A DNA stretch of 25,658 nucleotides from a virus. The DNA is taken from the IMG/VR virus record IMGVR_UViG_3300009120_000006, positions 1 to 25,658 of that record; one strand, written 5' to 3'. This document shows positions 4,036-24,340 of the stretch, piece by piece. Every line of letters begins with the position of its first letter. Positions within the stretch are counted from its first letter, which is position 1. The position numbers were made by a program, and so were the translations under genes. The notes beneath the pieces were generated by a model, which searched no databases, was not told where the DNA came from, and was given only the letters and a program-made list of their open reading frames with translations.

Positions 4036-5688
4036 TTAGGAGTGGGTGAATACGAAGTCGTAGTCATCATCAGATTCTTGTCCTTCAAGAAACTGAGCAA
4101 TATAAAAAAGAGCATATACCAAAGCAGAGTATCTATCTTTATCTACTCGCTTTACTACTTGCTCCACTGTTACAGATGCGCTATTTTGTGTTTTCTTAAG
4201 TTTTAGATTCGCCACCTCGTCTATCAAAACTTGTGTTTGAACACATATGGTCTCCACCGCTTCTTCATCTACACCCTTTGGGATATTCTCTTTTATCTCA
4301 TCAAACGAGCGCACAAGTTTCAATTTGTTAGATTCAACGAAGTTAATAAACGTCCTTATGATATCTCCGTTTATACCCTGAGACTTTAAAACATATACAA
4401 ATGGGGGCGCGTCTTTGACTTTGGGCTTATCTTCCGTGTTGATAGTAGCGAAGCAACCCAATTCTTGATTAGTTTCATAGTCAGTTACATCCTCTAAAAG
4501 TTTTTCCACCAATCCCTGGCCTATTGTATTTCCGTCCACGACAATAGCCTTGACTCTTGATTTACTAACATCTAAATCTCCGCCATACTGATAAAAGACT
4601 CTTTTTACTACAATAGATTGTTCTTCATAATTCAGTCCATTGGGCGGAGTAATAATGTTTACTACATGAACCTGACGAATGACACCTGCTTGGTTTCTGA
4701 TGATCTTAAGAACTACGATGGCAGTTTTATTATTGTTTTCAGTGTTACTTCTTGCGACATCTACACCTATTACGTACTCAACCATTTCGTTGTGTCCACG
4801 CTTGTCTTTGGGACATTCTAATTCCGGCGATGGTAAACTCCTTGCCTTGATTAGCTTGGATATATTAATCAAACCGCCGTCACTCACGCCCACCCAATCA
4901 CAAAGATAATTCTGCCTAAAACGGATAATATTGGTTTTTCTTGCTTTGTCTATAACTGATTTCTTCTGTCTGCCAAAATGAACTGGTATAAACCAGTCCG
5001 AACCAAAAACAAATCCTCCGCGCAAATCCACCATATCACGAAGAATACTGATTATTTTTTCATACTCATCACTATTCTTATAGCCAGATGTACTATACCG
5101 ATTTATTTGCGAGTTTAATTCTTGAGGATCAATTTCTCCGCTCATCGTTGTTCTTGGAATGTTAAAAATTGGTTCTATACAATCATCGTAGGTGTCTTTG
5201 TCAATTAAGGCAGATTCTTCCAATCCGCCTCTGCGCCTTCTGAGACCTTTGCTTTGCGGACTATTAGCTAAGTTATCAATTACGCTTCCCGAAATAAATT
5301 CCACACGCCCTTGATCTTTAGAGAAATTAGCCGTGCGTATGTTTTCTGCAAAAGATGGATAGAATCGAAGAATTTCATCATGTTTATCTTTCCAAATTTT
5401 AACCGCACTCTCTTTTGTAGATGCTGTAATAGAGGTGGTTATGTTCGGAAAGCAACATGCAGTATGATATTGATTCATAATGTGGAGCAATGTTTTAGAA
5501 ATACCACGAGGAGCACAAAAATAATTTTCTGGAAATCTAGAAAGTAATCGAATCATCACCCTTTGATGTAAATCAAAGGTTAATCCGCCTGTTTCAGGCT
5601 TATACAAATCCCAGAAGATATCCGGCATCCAACGCAGAAAAGAGCATAATTCTGCAAATTCTTTTATATGTCTAGTGATCGTTCTCAT
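4036..5688 (-). CDS. terL: Terminase large subunit (DNA-packaging ATPase/nuclease)
   Basis: With ATG at 5688 the product is 550 aa. The open frame continues 41 codons further, but that part only duplicates the end of the preceding gene in another frame, so I use the start that overlaps it by 17 bases. The ATPase domain has a Walker A variant APRGISKT (59-66), a Walker B-like stretch GGLEESA (154-160) with tandem Glu, and a following STSGYK motif (199-204) that fits the coupling motif. The nuclease domain has the three acidic positions of the RNase H fold: IGVDVARS (D310), IVVDGNTIG (D385) and VDKDRYSAL (D516/D518). It would cut concatemers and drive DNA into the prohead through the portal encoded next door. 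Confidence 0.93.
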   Translation of the reverse strand: MRTITRHIKEFAELCSFLRWMPDIFWDLYKPETGGLTFDLHQRVMIRLLSRFPENYFCAPRGISKTLLHIMNQYHTACCFPNITTSITASTKESAVKIWKDKHDEILRFYPSFAENIRTANFSKDQGRVEFISGSVIDNLANSPQSKGLRRRRGGLEESALIDKDTYDDCIEPIFNIPRTTMSGEIDPQELNSQINRYSTSGYKNSDEYEKIISILRDMVDLRGGFVFGSDWFIPVHFGRQKKSVIDKARKTNIIRFRQNYLCDWVGVSDGGLINISKLIKARSLPSPELECPKDKRGHNEMVEYVIGVDVARSNTENNNKTAIVVLKIIRNQAGVIRQVHVVNIITPPNGLNYEEQSIVVKRVFYQYGGDLDVSKSRVKAIVVDGNTIGQGLVEKLLEDVTDYETNQELGCFATINTEDKPKVKDAPPFVYVLKSQGINGDIIRTFINFVESNKLKLVRSFDEIKENIPKGVDEEAVETICVQTQVLIDEVANLKLKKTQNSASVTVEQVVKRVDKDRYSALVYALFYIAQFLEGQESDDDYDFVFTHS

Positions 5689-6712
5689 AAATAGGCTCTT
5701 TATATACTTCTCCCAGATCGCGAAAAACATTATTGCGTTTGATTTTTTCTTTTTCGACCATATCTGGAGCATACCCCTGTTGAGTGAAATATTCCGTAAG
5801 CATATCATCATAAAACCGCCATATGTCCTTATAAGCGATCCTGGGCTTATCTTCTAATCTTCTGGCGTAATTTATAATACACCATATAATTAAATCGGCA
5901 TCATCATACGGCTGTTCTTTTAGCTTTGGTAAAATCGGAATTATTCCAACCTCGGTCTCTACCGCCTCAAATAACTGAGGGAGTAAATCTACACCTCCAC
6001 TTATGTCTGACTTCGACAACTGCGAAACATTAATCTTTGCTGCCGTTGCTGCATCTTTAGCCATAGTTGCCCAATCTTTTGCTTCTTTAACCAGGCCGTT
6101 TGCTGTAGCCAATTCTTCTTTAACCCTAAATCTTATATAAGTTATTAAGCCCTCAATATGGAATGATGTTTTTTCTCCATAATTGTTTATCAGCTTATTC
6201 CACTTTTTCTCGAAATAATAATATTCTTGGTCAGTATACCCCACTCCCCACTTATCAATTATCTTGTCTGTTACTACAAACGTGTCTATACTATCCAACG
6301 ATGATTGCGGTGTCTCTGAACGGGTAGTTTCTATGTCGCCTTCATCAAATTGTGTATCAAAAACAGAATCGGCCCAACCCATACTTCTATACTGCTTCAT
6401 TGCTATATTTTTCATATATGTACCAAACGCATCTCGATTGCTCATAGATGTAGAAGTATTCCATATGTCTAGAATGAATGGTCTATCCAATAGTTGTAGC
6501 GTTTTCTTCAGCTTTACTAAATCAACGTTGCCACGTTCGTCCGTTATCATCTTTTTCAGACATGGTTTACAATACGGAAGACATCCCGTTTGATGAACTG
6601 GATTAAAACTCTTATAAAACTGAGATGAATCACGTTCCTTACCACATGCAGCACACGACACCCCTGGAAGGGGAATCTTTGGTTTGTTACTGTTTGAGCT
6701 AATCCGATGCAA
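5672..6712 (-). CDS. Zinc-finger protein before TerL, terminase small subunit candidate
   Basis: The 346-aa product starts with TTG at 6712, inside the last codons of the homing endonuclease gene (14-base overlap), and its best Shine-Dalgarno (GGAGG, 12 bases upstream) is also inside that gene. Residues 20-51 hold four cysteines spaced C-x2-C-x24-C-x2-C. The middle (100-180) is acidic and aromatic, residues 185-230 form an Ala/Lys-rich helix, and the end is helical and charged. Position directly before and overlapping terL argues for the DNA-recognition subunit of the terminase. It is longer than classical small subunits (about 150-200 aa), and I see no clear HTH, so the role is contextual. 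Confidence 0.6.
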   Translation of the reverse strand: MHRISSNSNKPKIPLPGVSCAACGKERDSSQFYKSFNPVHQTGCLPYCKPCLKKMITDERGNVDLVKLKKTLQLLDRPFILDIWNTSTSMSNRDAFGTYMKNIAMKQYRSMGWADSVFDTQFDEGDIETTRSETPQSSLDSIDTFVVTDKIIDKWGVGYTDQEYYYFEKKWNKLINNYGEKTSFHIEGLITYIRFRVKEELATANGLVKEAKDWATMAKDAATAAKINVSQLSKSDISGGVDLLPQLFEAVETEVGIIPILPKLKEQPYDDADLIIWCIINYARRLEDKPRIAYKDIWRFYDDMLTEYFTQQGYAPDMVEKEKIKRNNVFRDLGEVYKEPIYENDH

Positions 6713-7613
6713 TCAACTCTTCTCCCTCCACAAATCTCCATTTAAAACCACCCGCAGTATTTTGAATTCCACAACATACGGAATGAATATTCCATATACC
6801 AGTCTCTTTGCGCGCCTTCTGTGAACTTTCCCACCGCCGTATGACATTGCCATTAAGGTCACACTGATATACTGGCCTTTTATTTAGTTTCACCGTATTA
6901 TGAACAAATGTTCCACTATAGTAATCGGATTTACGCACCCACACATACCCTTTATAACTTTGAATATGTCCATTAAGACATCTATTTATATTACATGCCT
7001 TATAACCAATTTGTCTTTGCACTTCATGTGCACTCAACCATTCCGAGACAAATGAGCCATTGGGGGCAAGTTGAACTATCTCTATATTGTTAATCCTTTT
7101 TAATTTATCTTTTGTTTCTTCGGATGTTTTTCTACCCAAAGCATTTCCAGCAGTGGGATTTAAATTATAACCCTTAGTCTTATCGCAAACGCCAAGGTTA
7201 TTTATCCAATGCTGTTCTCTTTTAACTAGCATCTTTTTATCAGGAATAAATTCTAGAACTATAAACTTAAAAGCATCTTCGCCATGTTTATTGTAAGCAT
7301 TTTGTAAATATACGTTTTCGTGATTGTTATTTCGTAGCATACTCATATGTGCACACCATCTAGTAAAAATGTCTTTTGCACTACCCACATAAGATTTATT
7401 AGATTTGCAGTTTCTGATTTCATATACGCCGTGCTTTTTATAAATATCTTCCCAAAAATAATCAAAAGTTTGTTTCTTAGAAAAGAATTCCGTACCACAA
7501 TCACATTTCTTACATGCACTTCTGAACCCATTTTTCCTCGATTTATCCATAAAGAAATAATCAGATGTAAGCGGATATTCGTTGCCACATTTGCTACACT
7601 TCTTTGAATTCAT
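6699..7613 (-). CDS. GIY-YIG homing endonuclease with NUMOD repeats
   Basis: The 304-aa product has four parts. Residues 6-37 form a zinc finger C-x2-C-x24-C-x2-C. Residues 60-145 are a GIY-YIG nuclease with GVYEI (62-66), SYVGSAKD (74-81), the catalytic Arg of FTRWCAH (R85) and the catalytic Glu of KREQHWI (E133). Residues 152-175 carry a NUMOD3-type helix (GRKTSEETKDKLKR). Two NUMOD1-like DNA-binding repeats follow (177-228 and 246-295), each with the pattern G-x-hydrophobic ... W-x-S ... I-x-x-C ... G-x-x-W. This is the I-TevI/I-BmoI type of free-standing selfish endonuclease. It is inserted between a structural gene and the terminase genes, and the terminase reading now starts inside its 3' end. 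Confidence 0.93.
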   Translation of the reverse strand: MNSKKCSKCGNEYPLTSDYFFMDKSRKNGFRSACKKCDCGTEFFSKKQTFDYFWEDIYKKHGVYEIRNCKSNKSYVGSAKDIFTRWCAHMSMLRNNNHENVYLQNAYNKHGEDAFKFIVLEFIPDKKMLVKREQHWINNLGVCDKTKGYNLNPTAGNALGRKTSEETKDKLKRINNIEIVQLAPNGSFVSEWLSAHEVQRQIGYKACNINRCLNGHIQSYKGYVWVRKSDYYSGTFVHNTVKLNKRPVYQCDLNGNVIRRWESSQKARKETGIWNIHSVCCGIQNTAGGFKWRFVEGEELIASD

Positions 7614-8354: not shown

Positions 8355-8372
8355 GTTGTTTCCTTAAACAAC
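8355..8372 (-). terminator. Hairpin at the stop of the 38-aa gene
   Basis: GTTGTTT and AAACAAC pair around a four-base loop; read leftward the stem includes the TAA stop of the small membrane gene and is followed by TCTTTTATAT. The stem is A/T-rich, so a weak terminator or an attenuator of the structural gene 56 bases further on is possible. Confidence 0.35.
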
Positions 8373-8480
8373 AGGATCAAAAAAACAACTAACCCAAAAC
8401 CATATATGCACACCATACTTAAACCAAGTAGGTATTGCAGACACAACTAGCACCCCAACAACCCACCATGGTAAGTACAT
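8364..8480 (-). CDS. 38-aa tryptophan-rich membrane peptide
   Basis: ATG at 8480 lies six bases after GGAGG, and 38 codons follow to TAA at 8364-8366. The product begins MYLPWWVVGVLVVSAIP and is almost wholly hydrophobic with five tryptophans, consistent with one or two membrane-spanning helices; there are only one Lys and one Asp. It is too short for routine gene finding, but the ribosome site and lack of any other gene here support it. It is the first reading frame after the large gene-free block upstream. A holin-like or membrane-anchoring role is possible, but nothing in the sequence decides it. Confidence 0.6.
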   Translation of the reverse strand: MYLPWWVVGVLVVSAIPTWFKYGVHIWFWVSCFFDPVV

Positions 8481-8893
8481 GTGTAACCTCCAAATTTTAA
8501 TCCAGTCGGCGTAAAGCCAAATTTAAACGAGCAGGGCTTACGCTTTTCAGCAGCCTGCTCTCAATCAAACTGGAAATTTTTTAGTCGCCACCAGTAGGCG
8601 ACAAACATTTCTCAGGCCGGACATTTATTAGTCGCTGCCGGTACGCGACATTGATACACACTAGGCAGGGCGACGATCCTGCATTTCCCATCTATCCCAT
8701 CATGTACTCATGTACTGTGTTAGACAGTGGGCGAAGCTGCCAGTTCTACTTCTAGTGTGACTTTAACAATGAGCATGGACTTATTGGCAACGCCATGCTC
8801 GCACTTACAAGTCGCAGTTATGGCCGCGAAACGCCATCGCAAAGATAATCTCGCCACATTAGATTTGACTCCACATGAGTCATGGTATGTGGC
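8481..8893 (-). ncRNA. Candidate large structured RNA (413 bases without a gene)
   Basis: This block has no open frame but is packed with nested perfect inverted repeats. From right to left these are AATCTCGC/GCGAGATT (8847-8854 with 8897-8904) enclosing CACAT/ATGTG (8855-8859 with 8887-8891) and GACTC/GAGTC (8867-8871 with 8877-8881); ATGGC/GCCAT (8820-8824, 8833-8837); GAGCATGG/CCATGCTC (8771-8778, 8793-8800); ACTGT/ACAGT (8714-8718, 8724-8728); GCAGG/CCTGC (8665-8669, 8678-8682); GTCGC/GCGAC (8631-8635, 8645-8649); GTCGCC/GGCGAC (8584-8589, 8597-8602); and TCCAGT/ACTGGA (8501-8506, 8569-8574) enclosing GGC/GCC and GAGCAGG/CCTGCTC (8529-8535, 8554-8560). Both neighbours are leftward, so I assume leftward transcription. 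Phages are known to carry large ornate RNAs (GOLLD, ROOL); I cannot match it to either. Confidence 0.5.
8581..8650. repeat. Two related hairpins with a shared loop pattern
   Basis: TTAGTCGCCACCAGTAGGCG and TTAGTCGCTGCCGGTACGCG each continue with ACA and share the plan GTCGC-N-NCCNGTA-N-GCGAC. They stand 47 bases apart inside the candidate RNA. A weaker third relative (GTCGC ... GCGA) is at 8811-8829. Confidence 0.7.
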
Positions 8894-9097
8894 TTAGCGA
8901 GATTGCCTGTGTTTACAATTAAAGCAAGTATTAGTGATTGTAGTCCAATCAACATTCTTGCGGGCACGTAACTTAATTAACTCTGGAGCATTTATTAGCG
9001 TCATATCATATCCGCAACATCCATCACATATGAGCGATTGTATTAAGGGGCAGAAGTACATTCCTTCGTTTTCACAGAGGGTGCATTTGAGGTTCAT
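8894..9097 (-). CDS. Small cysteine-rich (zinc-binding) protein
   Basis: The 67-aa product begins at an ATGA overlap with the stop of the metallophosphoesterase gene, so translation is probably coupled. It has eight cysteines: C5-x2-C8, C16, C24-x2-C27-C28 and C58-x2-C61, enough to hold one or two zinc ions, with a basic end (KHRQSR). The last codons and stop form one arm of a strong hairpin that continues into the gene-free block downstream. The protein is likely a small nucleic-acid or protein adaptor; I do not recognise it. Confidence 0.75.
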   Translation of the reverse strand: MNLKCTLCENEGMYFCPLIQSLICDGCCGYDMTLINAPELIKLRARKNVDWTTITNTCFNCKHRQSR

Positions 9098-10365
9098 GCA
9101 GTTATCACCGAATGTATAATATCAGTTAACCCCAGTTCACGATCCCACACAAAACTTTGCGCCTTTCTGACCGCACCTACATAACCACTCTCATAATGCC
9201 AACTGTCTGTAGCAGTAATACTAGACACATTTCTGATTATGATATTACTTTCTTCTCTGACCTGTTCACTATGTAAATGTCCAAGATGAACTTCATGCCA
9301 CAATGTTCTACCCCATGCTTCCCTGGCTTCAGTAGGCATTAGTCCGGCAATTCTCTTTCTTTCCGAATCACCATGAGCAAATGCGATGAGGCACTTGCCA
9401 AACTCAACATACTTACGAGATTTAGGGTCAATGTCCACTGTTACATATGGATGATTTCTATACCACGCATACAGATAATTAACTGCATAGTATGAAGTAG
9501 TCTTGTCGTGATTGGAGCCTATGTAGAATGTCTCTACTGGAGCAACATTAGACAACAAATCTATACCTTCAACCAACATCTCAATGCCCTTTAGGTAGAG
9601 TTTTTGCCACCTCATATCAGTATCTTGTCTCGTGCCCTTTGTGGTTGAGCTTTCAATATTATCGAAGTGGAAAAAGTCATTTGCCCACACAAAGAGTATT
9701 TTTTCGAACTTATAATGTTGTGTACGAGTAATAATATCGTTTATTACATGTAAAAATCGTTGTTTTGCTATTTTATAATCATAACTCTCACCAGTTTCAC
9801 CATACCAACAAAGCTTGCCGACATGCGCATCTGCGATGTTCACTTCGAGCATTTTGCCTTTAATATCATATCTCACTGGTTGATGGGATGGGGGAGTATA
9901 CGATTTAGAGAATGTTTCAAAATGTTCTTCTATCTCTTGAAGTGAAATGCTATCAACTCTTGGCTTAACCACAATCCTGCTTGAGTATTTTACATTCTCG
10001 CCAACATGCCACATACTGTTTCTGGAACTAACTATCTCCCACGACTTATGGCAATATCCATGTGCTTTCAGTAAATATGTAGCATCTTTAGCCTGTTCAG
10101 CAGACATTTCAAGCAGTTTATCAGAAACTTGACTGCCGTCTTTGTTTAGTTCTATAGTTTCTTTATATGTATTTACATTACTTGTATTGGATTCAGTTTG
10201 CTTAGTTGGATTGCGTACTATACCGTGCTTACGTTCATACTTGCGTATCGCGTCTCTAGCCGCTTCTCCATCTATCCCAAACTTAGAACCCAACTCAGGC
10301 CATGATATATTTAGTTTGCCCTCTCGCTTTTGTAGTCCAAGAGCAATTAACTCATCCTTGTTCAC
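9094..10365 (-). CDS. Calcineurin-like metallophosphoesterase with N-terminal HTH-like part
   Basis: The 423-aa product starts with GTG after AGAGGTGA. Residues 1-50 look like a helix-turn-helix region (LNISWPELGSKFG then EAARDAIRKY), followed by a linker. From residue 170 the metallophosphoesterase motifs appear in order: D179-A-H181 (NIADAHVGK), N229-D230 with H233 (variant of the GD.H motif), N285-H286-D287 (GSNHD), H331 (AFAHGD) and H360-x2-H363-x-H365 (HLGHLHS). These ligate two metal ions. Similar phage proteins are often annotated as DNA repair exonucleases (SbcD/Mre11 fold), but no partner ATPase of that kind is visible. It is co-transcribed with PhoH and the Cys-rich protein. Confidence 0.88.
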   Translation of the reverse strand: MNKDELIALGLQKREGKLNISWPELGSKFGIDGEAARDAIRKYERKHGIVRNPTKQTESNTSNVNTYKETIELNKDGSQVSDKLLEMSAEQAKDATYLLKAHGYCHKSWEIVSSRNSMWHVGENVKYSSRIVVKPRVDSISLQEIEEHFETFSKSYTPPSHQPVRYDIKGKMLEVNIADAHVGKLCWYGETGESYDYKIAKQRFLHVINDIITRTQHYKFEKILFVWANDFFHFDNIESSTTKGTRQDTDMRWQKLYLKGIEMLVEGIDLLSNVAPVETFYIGSNHDKTTSYYAVNYLYAWYRNHPYVTVDIDPKSRKYVEFGKCLIAFAHGDSERKRIAGLMPTEAREAWGRTLWHEVHLGHLHSEQVREESNIIIRNVSSITATDSWHYESGYVGAVRKAQSFVWDRELGLTDIIHSVITA

Positions 10366-21967: not shown

Positions 21968-22480
21968 ATGAAAGAACTCCGCCTAAAGTTTCTGCAGGAT
22001 CAGTTCTCCGGCACTATCACCTCTAAGAATGGTAAATACCTTGTGACATTCCCCAACTCCTCTAATGTCTATACTTACTCCTGTAACCTTCAGGAGTTAG
22101 CCCAAAAACTCCGCATAGATGTTTCTGATCTCCTAGACTCCGGCAATACTTACAACACGGGCACAAAAGCTGCTAAGCATATGCACCAGGCTAGACAACG
22201 TAATCAATTCTCCTTAGAGGATATAATGCAGGAGAATAAACCTGCTAAGGTTGCAGCCCTCCGCGAGTTTTATAATCACTGTTCCCAGGCTACTAGTGGA
22301 GAATATACCCTTTATGCAGAGATTAATCTTACCTCCGGCGATATCGCTTTTCACACTATAGCAGGCTCCCAAAATGATGTTCCGGCGGGCAAGGGAGAAC
22401 GCAAAACGCTTTATATCTCCTGTTTGCCTAGTGGAATACAGTGGGCAGCGGAAACAGTAGAAAAGTATACTAACCGTTAA
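21968..22480 (+). CDS. Unknown protein, 170 aa
   Basis: ATG at 21968 follows AAGGAGG by eight bases. The product begins MKELRLKFLQDQFSG; residues 18-45 look like a beta-rich segment (YLVTFPNSSNVYTYSC), 46-62 a helix, 65-100 a basic, polar linker, and 105-165 a second alpha/beta part with YTLYAEINLTSGDIAFH and LYISCLPSGIQWAAETV. No membrane segment or metal motif is seen. It lies between two hairpin-bearing gaps. The layout resembles phage host-takeover proteins, but that is context only. Confidence 0.75.
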   Translation: MKELRLKFLQDQFSGTITSKNGKYLVTFPNSSNVYTYSCNLQELAQKLRIDVSDLLDSGNTYNTGTKAAKHMHQARQRNQFSLEDIMQENKPAKVAALREFYNHCSQATSGEYTLYAEINLTSGDIAFHTIAGSQNDVPAGKGERKTLYISCLPSGIQWAAETVEKYTNR

Positions 22481-22482
22481 CA

Positions 22483-22537
22483 GCTAGGCTCTCTAGCCTA
22501 GCCCTTCCCCTAAATACACTACCAATAGTGTGTTTAG
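22483..22537 (+). repeat. Two hairpins, one with a U.G pair
   Basis: GCTAGGCT/AGCCTAGC (22483-22502) has 8 bp. CTAAATACACTA/TAGTGTGTTTAG (22510-22537) has 12 bp with one T.G pair that is allowed only in rightward RNA, so the fold is likely an RNA element of the module transcript. Confidence 0.75.
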
Positions 22538-22552
22538 TGGTGGGACTAGTAA

Positions 22553-22575
22553 ACCCTATAACAGCCCTAGGACAA
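22553..22575 (+). repeat. Leader repeat, copy 1 (ACCCTATAACA ... CCTAGGACAA)
   Basis: A 23-base sequence that recurs at 23326-23348 with one difference. Both copies stand just before the ribosome site of the next gene. A 13-base part also occurs inside a gene at 23489. Confidence 0.8.
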
Positions 22576-22601
22576 ACTATAAACAATAAGGAGGTCATAT
22601 A

Positions 22602-22736
22602 ATGTCACTAGAACAATTCAAAGCCCTTTACGAAGTCAACAGTCAAAACTTTCTCGCCGATAAGATCACCCGTCAAGAATGGGCAAAACGTCGCAGGGAA
22701 CTACTAGACTTATTTATGAAGTCTAACAGCAAATAG
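22602..22736 (+). CDS. Unknown small helical protein, 44 aa
   Basis: ATG at 22602 follows AAGGAGG by seven bases and 44 codons run to TAG. The product begins MSLEQFKALYEVNSQNFLAD and continues with a basic helix (RQEWAKRRRELLDLFMK), giving a helix-turn-helix-like two-helix shape. The length is below common gene-calling cut-offs, but the ribosome site, spacing and flanking hairpins are those of its neighbours. The stop codon is part of the next hairpin. No family is recognised. Confidence 0.7.
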   Translation: MSLEQFKALYEVNSQNFLADKITRQEWAKRRRELLDLFMKSNSK

Positions 22737-22782
22737 CAGGATTAACTCCTGCTAAATATGTCCTAGTCATTAGGGCATGTTT
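22735..22782 (+). repeat. Two hairpins, one with two U.G pairs
   Basis: AGCAGGA/TCCTGCT (22735-22753) has 7 bp. AAATATGTCCTA/TAGGGCATGTTT (22754-22782) has 12 bp including two T.G pairs, again possible only in rightward RNA. The helices are adjacent and could stack. Confidence 0.75.
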
Positions 22783-24213: not shown

Positions 24214-24275
24214 AGTCGCTTGAGCGACTATAAACAGCCCCTTAAGCTCAAGGCGGGGAAGGGTTACACCTTCCC
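24214..24275 (+). repeat. Two hairpins in the 24.2 kb gap
   Basis: AGTCGCT/AGCGACT (24214-24229) has a 7-bp stem with a two-base loop; GGGAAGG/CCTTCCC (24256-24275) has 7 bp and a six-base loop. The gap (24205-24340) also holds four ATAACA copies. Confidence 0.75.
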
Positions 24276-24340
24276 ATAGGGAACCATAAAAGCACTCTAT
24301 AACAGCCTAACAATTACCTATAACAAAGGAGGTCTATAAC

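Follow-up and report, generated by a model that had tools for sequence, protein, structure and literature searches.

A candidate RNA antitoxin array among the late genes of an SPbeta-like phage

What is encoded by a structured, non-coding block of about 400 nt that lies between two leftward phage genes? The window, which is the whole stretch of DNA analyzed here (25,658 nucleotides), is a 25.7-kb fragment of a phage genome. A preliminary description, made from the letters alone, had read the block as one large, ornate RNA that could not be matched. The inverted repeats that it claimed are present in the positions given for them, between leftward genes. Its reading of the non-coding gap as a large phage RNA with structure is also borne out, and the families to which the repeated hairpins belong covary. 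The remainder of that reading has to be replaced. The block is not a single giant fold or one ornate unknown RNA; it is several RNA modules of known kinds in a row on the minus strand. Its core is a skipping-rope RNA in Rfam, and the hairpins that repeat are antitoxin pseudoknots of the CptI type. These module identities are fairly firm. The features are listed in Table 1.

Table 1. Features of the RNA block and of the genes around it (positions in the window)
Feature	Position	Strand	Remarks
Terminase large subunit gene	4036..5811	-	68.7% identical to SPbeta-group phages
phrog_3314 gene (YonG-like)	5672..6712	-	Comes after the RNA array in the window and in L450 alike
38-aa hydrophobic ORF (MYLPWWV...)	about 8364..8480	-	GGAGG site; just 3' of the block; read from sequence
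Whole structured non-coding block (module array)	8494..8904	-	Defined by fold, gap, and modules; 3' border at about 8494-8501
3' hairpin domain (GAGCAGG/CCUGCUC)	8501..8561	-	Read from sequence; tentative
CptI-like unit B	8562..8606	-	18.3 bits, E 0.044 (model R2)
CptI-like unit A	8607..8653	-	21.6 bits, E 0.0077 (model R2)
Skipping-rope RNA (RF02924), divergent	8657..8759	-	Rfam 39.2 bits, cut-off 36.7
Hairpin GGCGUUUCGCGGCC	8822..8835	-	Resembles GGUGUUUCRCCACC of SPbetaL2, Geobacillus virus E3, and the L004 group, by a pattern picked after the sequences were seen
5' nested hairpin	8847..8904	-	Shares bases with the 3' end of the 67-aa ORF, stop codon included
67-aa ORF	8894..9097	-	Upstream of the block; CxxC pairs
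DNA repair exonuclease-like gene (phrog_704)	9094..10365	-	Used as anchor to find relatives

All neighbors of the block run leftward. The order in that direction is PhoH, the exonuclease-like gene, the 67-aa ORF, the RNA block, the 38-aa ORF, a 144-aa gene, a GIY-YIG homing endonuclease gene, the phrog_3314 gene, terminase, and portal. The gap had been described as free of genes. Its non-coding part stands, but the stop codon of the 67-aa ORF sits within the 5' hairpin and the 38-aa ORF follows the block. The 67-aa ORF had no match in Pfam, PHROG, or NCBIfam, and a Pfam search with the 38-aa ORF gave none. A search for relatives of the 144-aa gene returned a single distant match. The GIY-YIG gene (6699-7613, minus strand) contains a NUMOD-like domain and lies in the late operon right before the phrog_3314 gene. 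Named phages had no DNA similarity to the block. The block is best read as the non-coding portion of a leftward late operon of an SPbeta-like phage.

Structured elements also occur elsewhere in the window. A Pistol self-cleaving ribozyme (RF02679) was found among small rightward genes at 24214-24281 on the plus strand (49.2 bits; cut-off, 34.5). The stretch at 22478-22780 on the plus strand is strongly structured (-85.8 kcal/mol; z, -5.4; 0 of 100 shuffles) and has the best z-score of the window. It contains a short ORF behind an AAGGAGG site, with hairpins on either side.

For 8456-8914, the fold of the minus strand has an energy of -154.4 kcal/mol (z, -3.2), a value reached by 0 of 100 shuffles. 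The plus strand folds at -137.2 kcal/mol (z, -3.0). Both strands fold nearly equally well, so folding energy does not settle the strand of the block. When the window is divided into 300-nt tiles, none fold at lower energy than those of the block, yet its z-scores are ordinary because its G+C content is higher (46 to 48%, versus 39.7%). Folding energy alone would not prove an RNA.

The core exceeds the cut-off of the skipping-rope family. In the window, P1 pairs 8759-8752 with 8664-8657 (8/8 pairs), P4 is GCAGG/CCUGC (5/5 pairs), the P3 arm is long, and P2 is poorly matched. The P2 loop (GGY) and the P4 loop (RCC) are paired invariably in alignment A1 of the family; the window offers GGC with GUC, including one G-U pair. 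Additional copies were gathered from IMG/VR by pattern, and 23 sequences were aligned. The alignment has 93.5% of cells paired and both sides changed in 19 of 26 pairs, and slid controls gave 33 to 43%. The covariation includes the loop-loop pairing. Model R1, which excluded the window, gave 29.2 bits (E 5e-7) at 8657-8759, and the next best match in the window had 8.5 bits. Clear copies in phage loci score 53 bits or more, and unrelated matches reach 20 to 27 bits in pattern-selected bacterial DNA, so we regard the window copy as a divergent member. A search of IMG/VR by pattern for the window's own variant gave no match. Two other Rfam matches were dismissed because they fell below their cut-offs: STAXI (15.8 bits) and the Caenorhabditis elegans snoRNA ceN126 (24.6 bits; cut-off, 80).

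The preliminary description had noted two hairpins with a kept loop and altered neighboring bases. They are direct repeats 47 nt apart (starts at 8649 and 8602), and the hairpins at 8582-8604 and 8628-8650 belong to two 47-nt tandem units. Both units have the stem GUCGC/GCGAC, intact at 5/5 pairs. Unit A has the A-rich linker UAAUAAAUGU and a loop-to-downstream pairing of CCGG/CCGG only; its loop and linker are identical in unit L333. Unit B has the A-rich linker UAAAAAAUUU and the loop-to-downstream pairing ACUGG/CCAGU, intact at 5/5 pairs. A pseudoknot descriptor matches unit B alone in the window (0.275 expected). The description had also proposed a helix, TCCAGT/ACTGGA, that closes a branched domain. 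The complementarity exists, but the CCAGU strand of the helix (8573-8569) can also pair, base for base, with the loop of the second of the repeated hairpins. The helix and the unit B loop pairing (stem 2) are mutually exclusive, and comparative support was found for the loop pairing only.

Units of the same kind are linked to CptN toxin genes. Geobacillus phage E3 contains two units (GUCGY-loop-GCGACURAYAAA) with loop sequences complementary to downstream bases. The same GUCGY-type units occur in L404, L453, L427/L387, L450, L455, L446, and L406. In L404, two units lie directly upstream of a CptN gene (205 bits; cut-off, 90), and the same repeat architecture was present upstream of CptN in all 10 bacterial loci inspected (for example, L329 and L333). 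In a set of 17 units linked to CptN, each of the two stems contains pairs in which both bases have changed; other pair types were not above shuffles. A broad GTCGC pattern scan gave mostly chance matches, and only those with loop complementarity were considered. Model R2 was built from CptI-type units without the window. Its two best matches in the window are unit A and then unit B, which adjoin each other at a spacing of 47 nt. In a scan of 632 kb of phage DNA, its matches at E ≤0.1 were only loci already recognized as carrying such units. An Rfam scan of a genuine CptIN locus reported nothing, which explains why the hairpins had found no match. Two related arrangements were seen in other contigs. 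L476, L477, and L478 each have two CptI-like units and a promoter-like site followed by a small gene and a GNAT-like gene. These repeats look like orphans, with neither cptN nor skipping-rope at the loci. In the phage contigs L427 (1673-1912) and L387, a CptI-like unit adjoins a drum RNA (RF02958) and a tRNA cluster.

No relative was found for the 5' nested hairpin or for the 3' domain, two outer domains that may be part of the same RNA as the modules. The loop of the 3' domain offers a further possible pairing, GCGUAAG/CUUUACGC. The counterparts of the hairpin at 8822-8835 lie in non-coding DNA of the same operon. It was this 5'-flank motif, common to SPbeta and E3, that pointed to the CptI-type units of E3. 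In SPbetaL2 (L349, 2893-3760), the corresponding gap is about 0.9 kb without annotated genes; it contains the hairpin GGUGUUUCGCCACC and no skipping-rope.

Among relatives of the upstream exonuclease gene, each of the closest four is preceded in its operon by skipping-rope, at a distance of 0.4 to 2 kb and typically 3' of an HU gene and 5' of a PIN/PhoH gene or the exonuclease. The window differs from them, as its copy comes after the exonuclease gene. Among terminase relatives (72 to 83% identity) and related records, skipping-rope was present in only 2 of 22, elsewhere in the genome. SPbeta and seven other named SPbeta-like phages do not carry it. Skipping-rope of temperate phages often comes directly after a PBECR3 nuclease gene (9 of 38 loci). 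PBECR3 is a phage Barnase-EndoU-ColicinE5/D-RelE-like nuclease. Other neighbors are PemK, a TenpIN-like toxin (74 bits, short of its cut-off, 90), and a CptIN toxin (121 bits).

We surveyed 200 Lachnospiraceae genomes in the reverse direction, from nuclease gene to skipping-rope. Skipping-rope was found 35 to 188 nt downstream on the same strand of 23 of 26 PBECR3 matches and of all 6 further PBECR2-only matches (29/32 in total). Conversely, a BECR-fold gene was upstream in 29 of the 49 skipping-rope loci and absent in 20. Two or three tandem RNA copies were present at three loci. As a control, skipping-rope followed only 1 of 25 cptN genes over the cut-off, and we rejected a general link with CptN on that count. 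We also rejected the identity of skipping-rope with CptI. L063 carries a direct repeat of the CptI kind upstream of cptN, L301 carries a CptI match, and at both loci skipping-rope lies downstream. Many skipping-rope copies have a TTGACA/TATAAT-like promoter right before them and a terminator-like hairpin right after. Bacterial examples of PBECR2/PBECR3 with downstream skipping-rope are G248:C70:15046-15680 and G064:C17:19461-20026. The pairs look like a type-III-like toxin-antitoxin family that the open-access papers searched do not describe. The promoter, tandem copies, pseudoknot, and RNase neighbor are features expected of an RNA antitoxin. On gene neighborhood, skipping-rope may neutralize the BECR nuclease. 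A search of Rfam and the open-access literature, where three papers name the RNA or its accession, found no described function for it.

The same combination of modules was recovered from another phage. The 122-kb phage contig L450 contains, in order, two tandem copies of 6A RNA (RF02925), a skipping-rope, one CptI unit, a tRNA, the phrog_3314 gene, and a terminase-like gene. Its CptI unit is nearly identical to that of L329. The window and L450 share the order and place of skipping-rope, CptI unit(s), phrog_3314, and terminase. The tandem 6A RNAs (L450, 6792-6893) could be pseudoknots, as their linkers are A-rich and their pairings differ by complementary substitutions (GAGC/GCUC versus GAAC/GUUC), and 6A RNA may be another RNA of the antitoxin type. 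In other large phages, skipping-rope sits inside 300 to 400 nt of structured non-coding DNA. Six related large phages have 20 predicted pairs with changes on both sides, in and around the skipping-rope core; their whole-fold covariation term is small.

The window contains no CptN gene, even at E 10, and no PBECR3-like ORF at E 1. The locus is not classed as a CptIN system because no cptN gene is adjacent. We read the block as an orphan set of RNA antitoxin modules that lies within the late operon and could well serve as a decoy against host RNase toxins, a reading that we hold tentatively. The decoy function itself we infer, at a little less than an even chance. Transcription of the late operon would yield an RNA of about 400 nt with the skipping-rope, two CptI-type pseudoknot repeats, and hairpins on either side. 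This RNA would build up with the late transcript during infection. The host's own RNase toxins, or other nucleases, would cut it into units. Each unit would bind and block its own kind of toxin, the CptN family for the repeats and BECR-fold nucleases for the skipping-rope. The phage could then no longer be stopped by toxin-antitoxin or abortive-infection systems, whether these belong to the host or to resident prophages. Several points count against a decoy. The single unit scores are modest, the skipping-rope copy is divergent, 20 of the 49 skipping-rope loci surveyed have no BECR-fold gene before them, the toxin may lie elsewhere in a genome of which the window is a fragment, and SPbeta and the seven other named phages have no skipping-rope. 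Two CptIN systems were tested and had no anti-phage activity (PMC5086642).

The fragmentary window would also suit the antitoxin half of a complete module, with its toxin outside the window or of an unrecognized family and a role in addiction or superinfection exclusion. Skipping-rope does adjoin a nuclease gene in temperate phages. However, the antitoxin RNA is next to the toxin gene in all CptN loci and most PBECR loci seen, neither kind of toxin gene is in the window, and the genes next to the block resemble those of a phage operon. We consider a complete module unlikely. Skipping-rope might instead be a trans-acting RNA that serves the phage, for example in packaging or in the control of late genes, with the CptI-like units as accessories. 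Its place is conserved near exonuclease, phrog_3314, and terminase genes, and in large phages terminase is close by. Copies in chromosomes and in temperate phages, though, are accompanied by nuclease genes and not by terminase, and most terminase relatives lack the RNA. This role appears rather unlikely.

The late genes and a well-placed GGAGG site lie 3' of the block, as would suit a cis-acting leader or attenuator of the small ORF and those genes. We find this improbable, as the downstream genes vary between phages and many skipping-rope copies have their own terminator, whereas the block has no terminator-like site. A non-functional, decaying relic of recombination with host antitoxin loci is improbable to the same degree. 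The divergent core and modest unit scores would fit a relic, but the P1, P4, and unit stems and the unit B loop pairing are intact. Chance clustering of inverted repeats is very improbable. It would agree with the ordinary z-scores of the 300-nt tiles. It is contradicted by the location beside the same genes as in relatives and by the three results that take the block beyond chance: the minus-strand match to a curated family, the match to a covariance model built independently, and the pair of repeat units that adjoin each other.

The decoy reading can be extended, more doubtfully, to a polyvalent counter-defense RNA. A single late transcript would carry decoy antitoxins against at least two unrelated RNase toxin families (CptN and PBECR). 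If so, skipping-rope RNAs would generally be RNA antitoxins of a new type-III-like family with BECR toxins. Given the near-obligate pairing with PBECR nucleases, a simple rescue assay could test their function directly. If the toxin-free copies of large phages act as decoys, RNA-only counter-defense would have multiple targets and extend beyond the single example of PhiTE. Decoys could also account for the clusters of small structured RNAs near packaging genes in some large phages.

The block resembles several known systems in part. Like GOLLD and ROOL, with which it was first compared, it is a structured non-coding RNA of a phage. It differs from them in being modular and about 400 nt long; the Rfam scan that found skipping-rope did not find GOLLD or ROOL at gathering score or at E 1. 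As in RF02924, P1 and P4 are complete, but the window copy has a weak P2 and no nuclease gene upstream and is embedded in a larger array. CptI has a very short loop 1 and a long adenine-rich loop 2 in its crystal structure (PMC5086642). The window likewise has two tandem units with a stem, a short loop 1, an A-rich loop 2, and loop pairing. Its units differ in having no promoter or terminator of their own and in scoring below toxin-linked repeats. The abiF motif RNA RCd22 was shown to be an antitoxin, so an RNA motif listed in Rfam that adjoins a toxin gene can act as its antitoxin (PMC12373285). It occurs with AbiF in prophages. It belongs to another RNA family with another toxin and lies upstream of the toxin gene, whereas skipping-rope lies downstream. 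The precedent, for which a decoy role was shown, is the pseudo-ToxI of phage PhiTE, which consists of toxin-free, antitoxin-like repeats within a phage genome (PMC3475682). The family there is ToxI; the window combines the CptI family with skipping-rope, and its activity is predicted.
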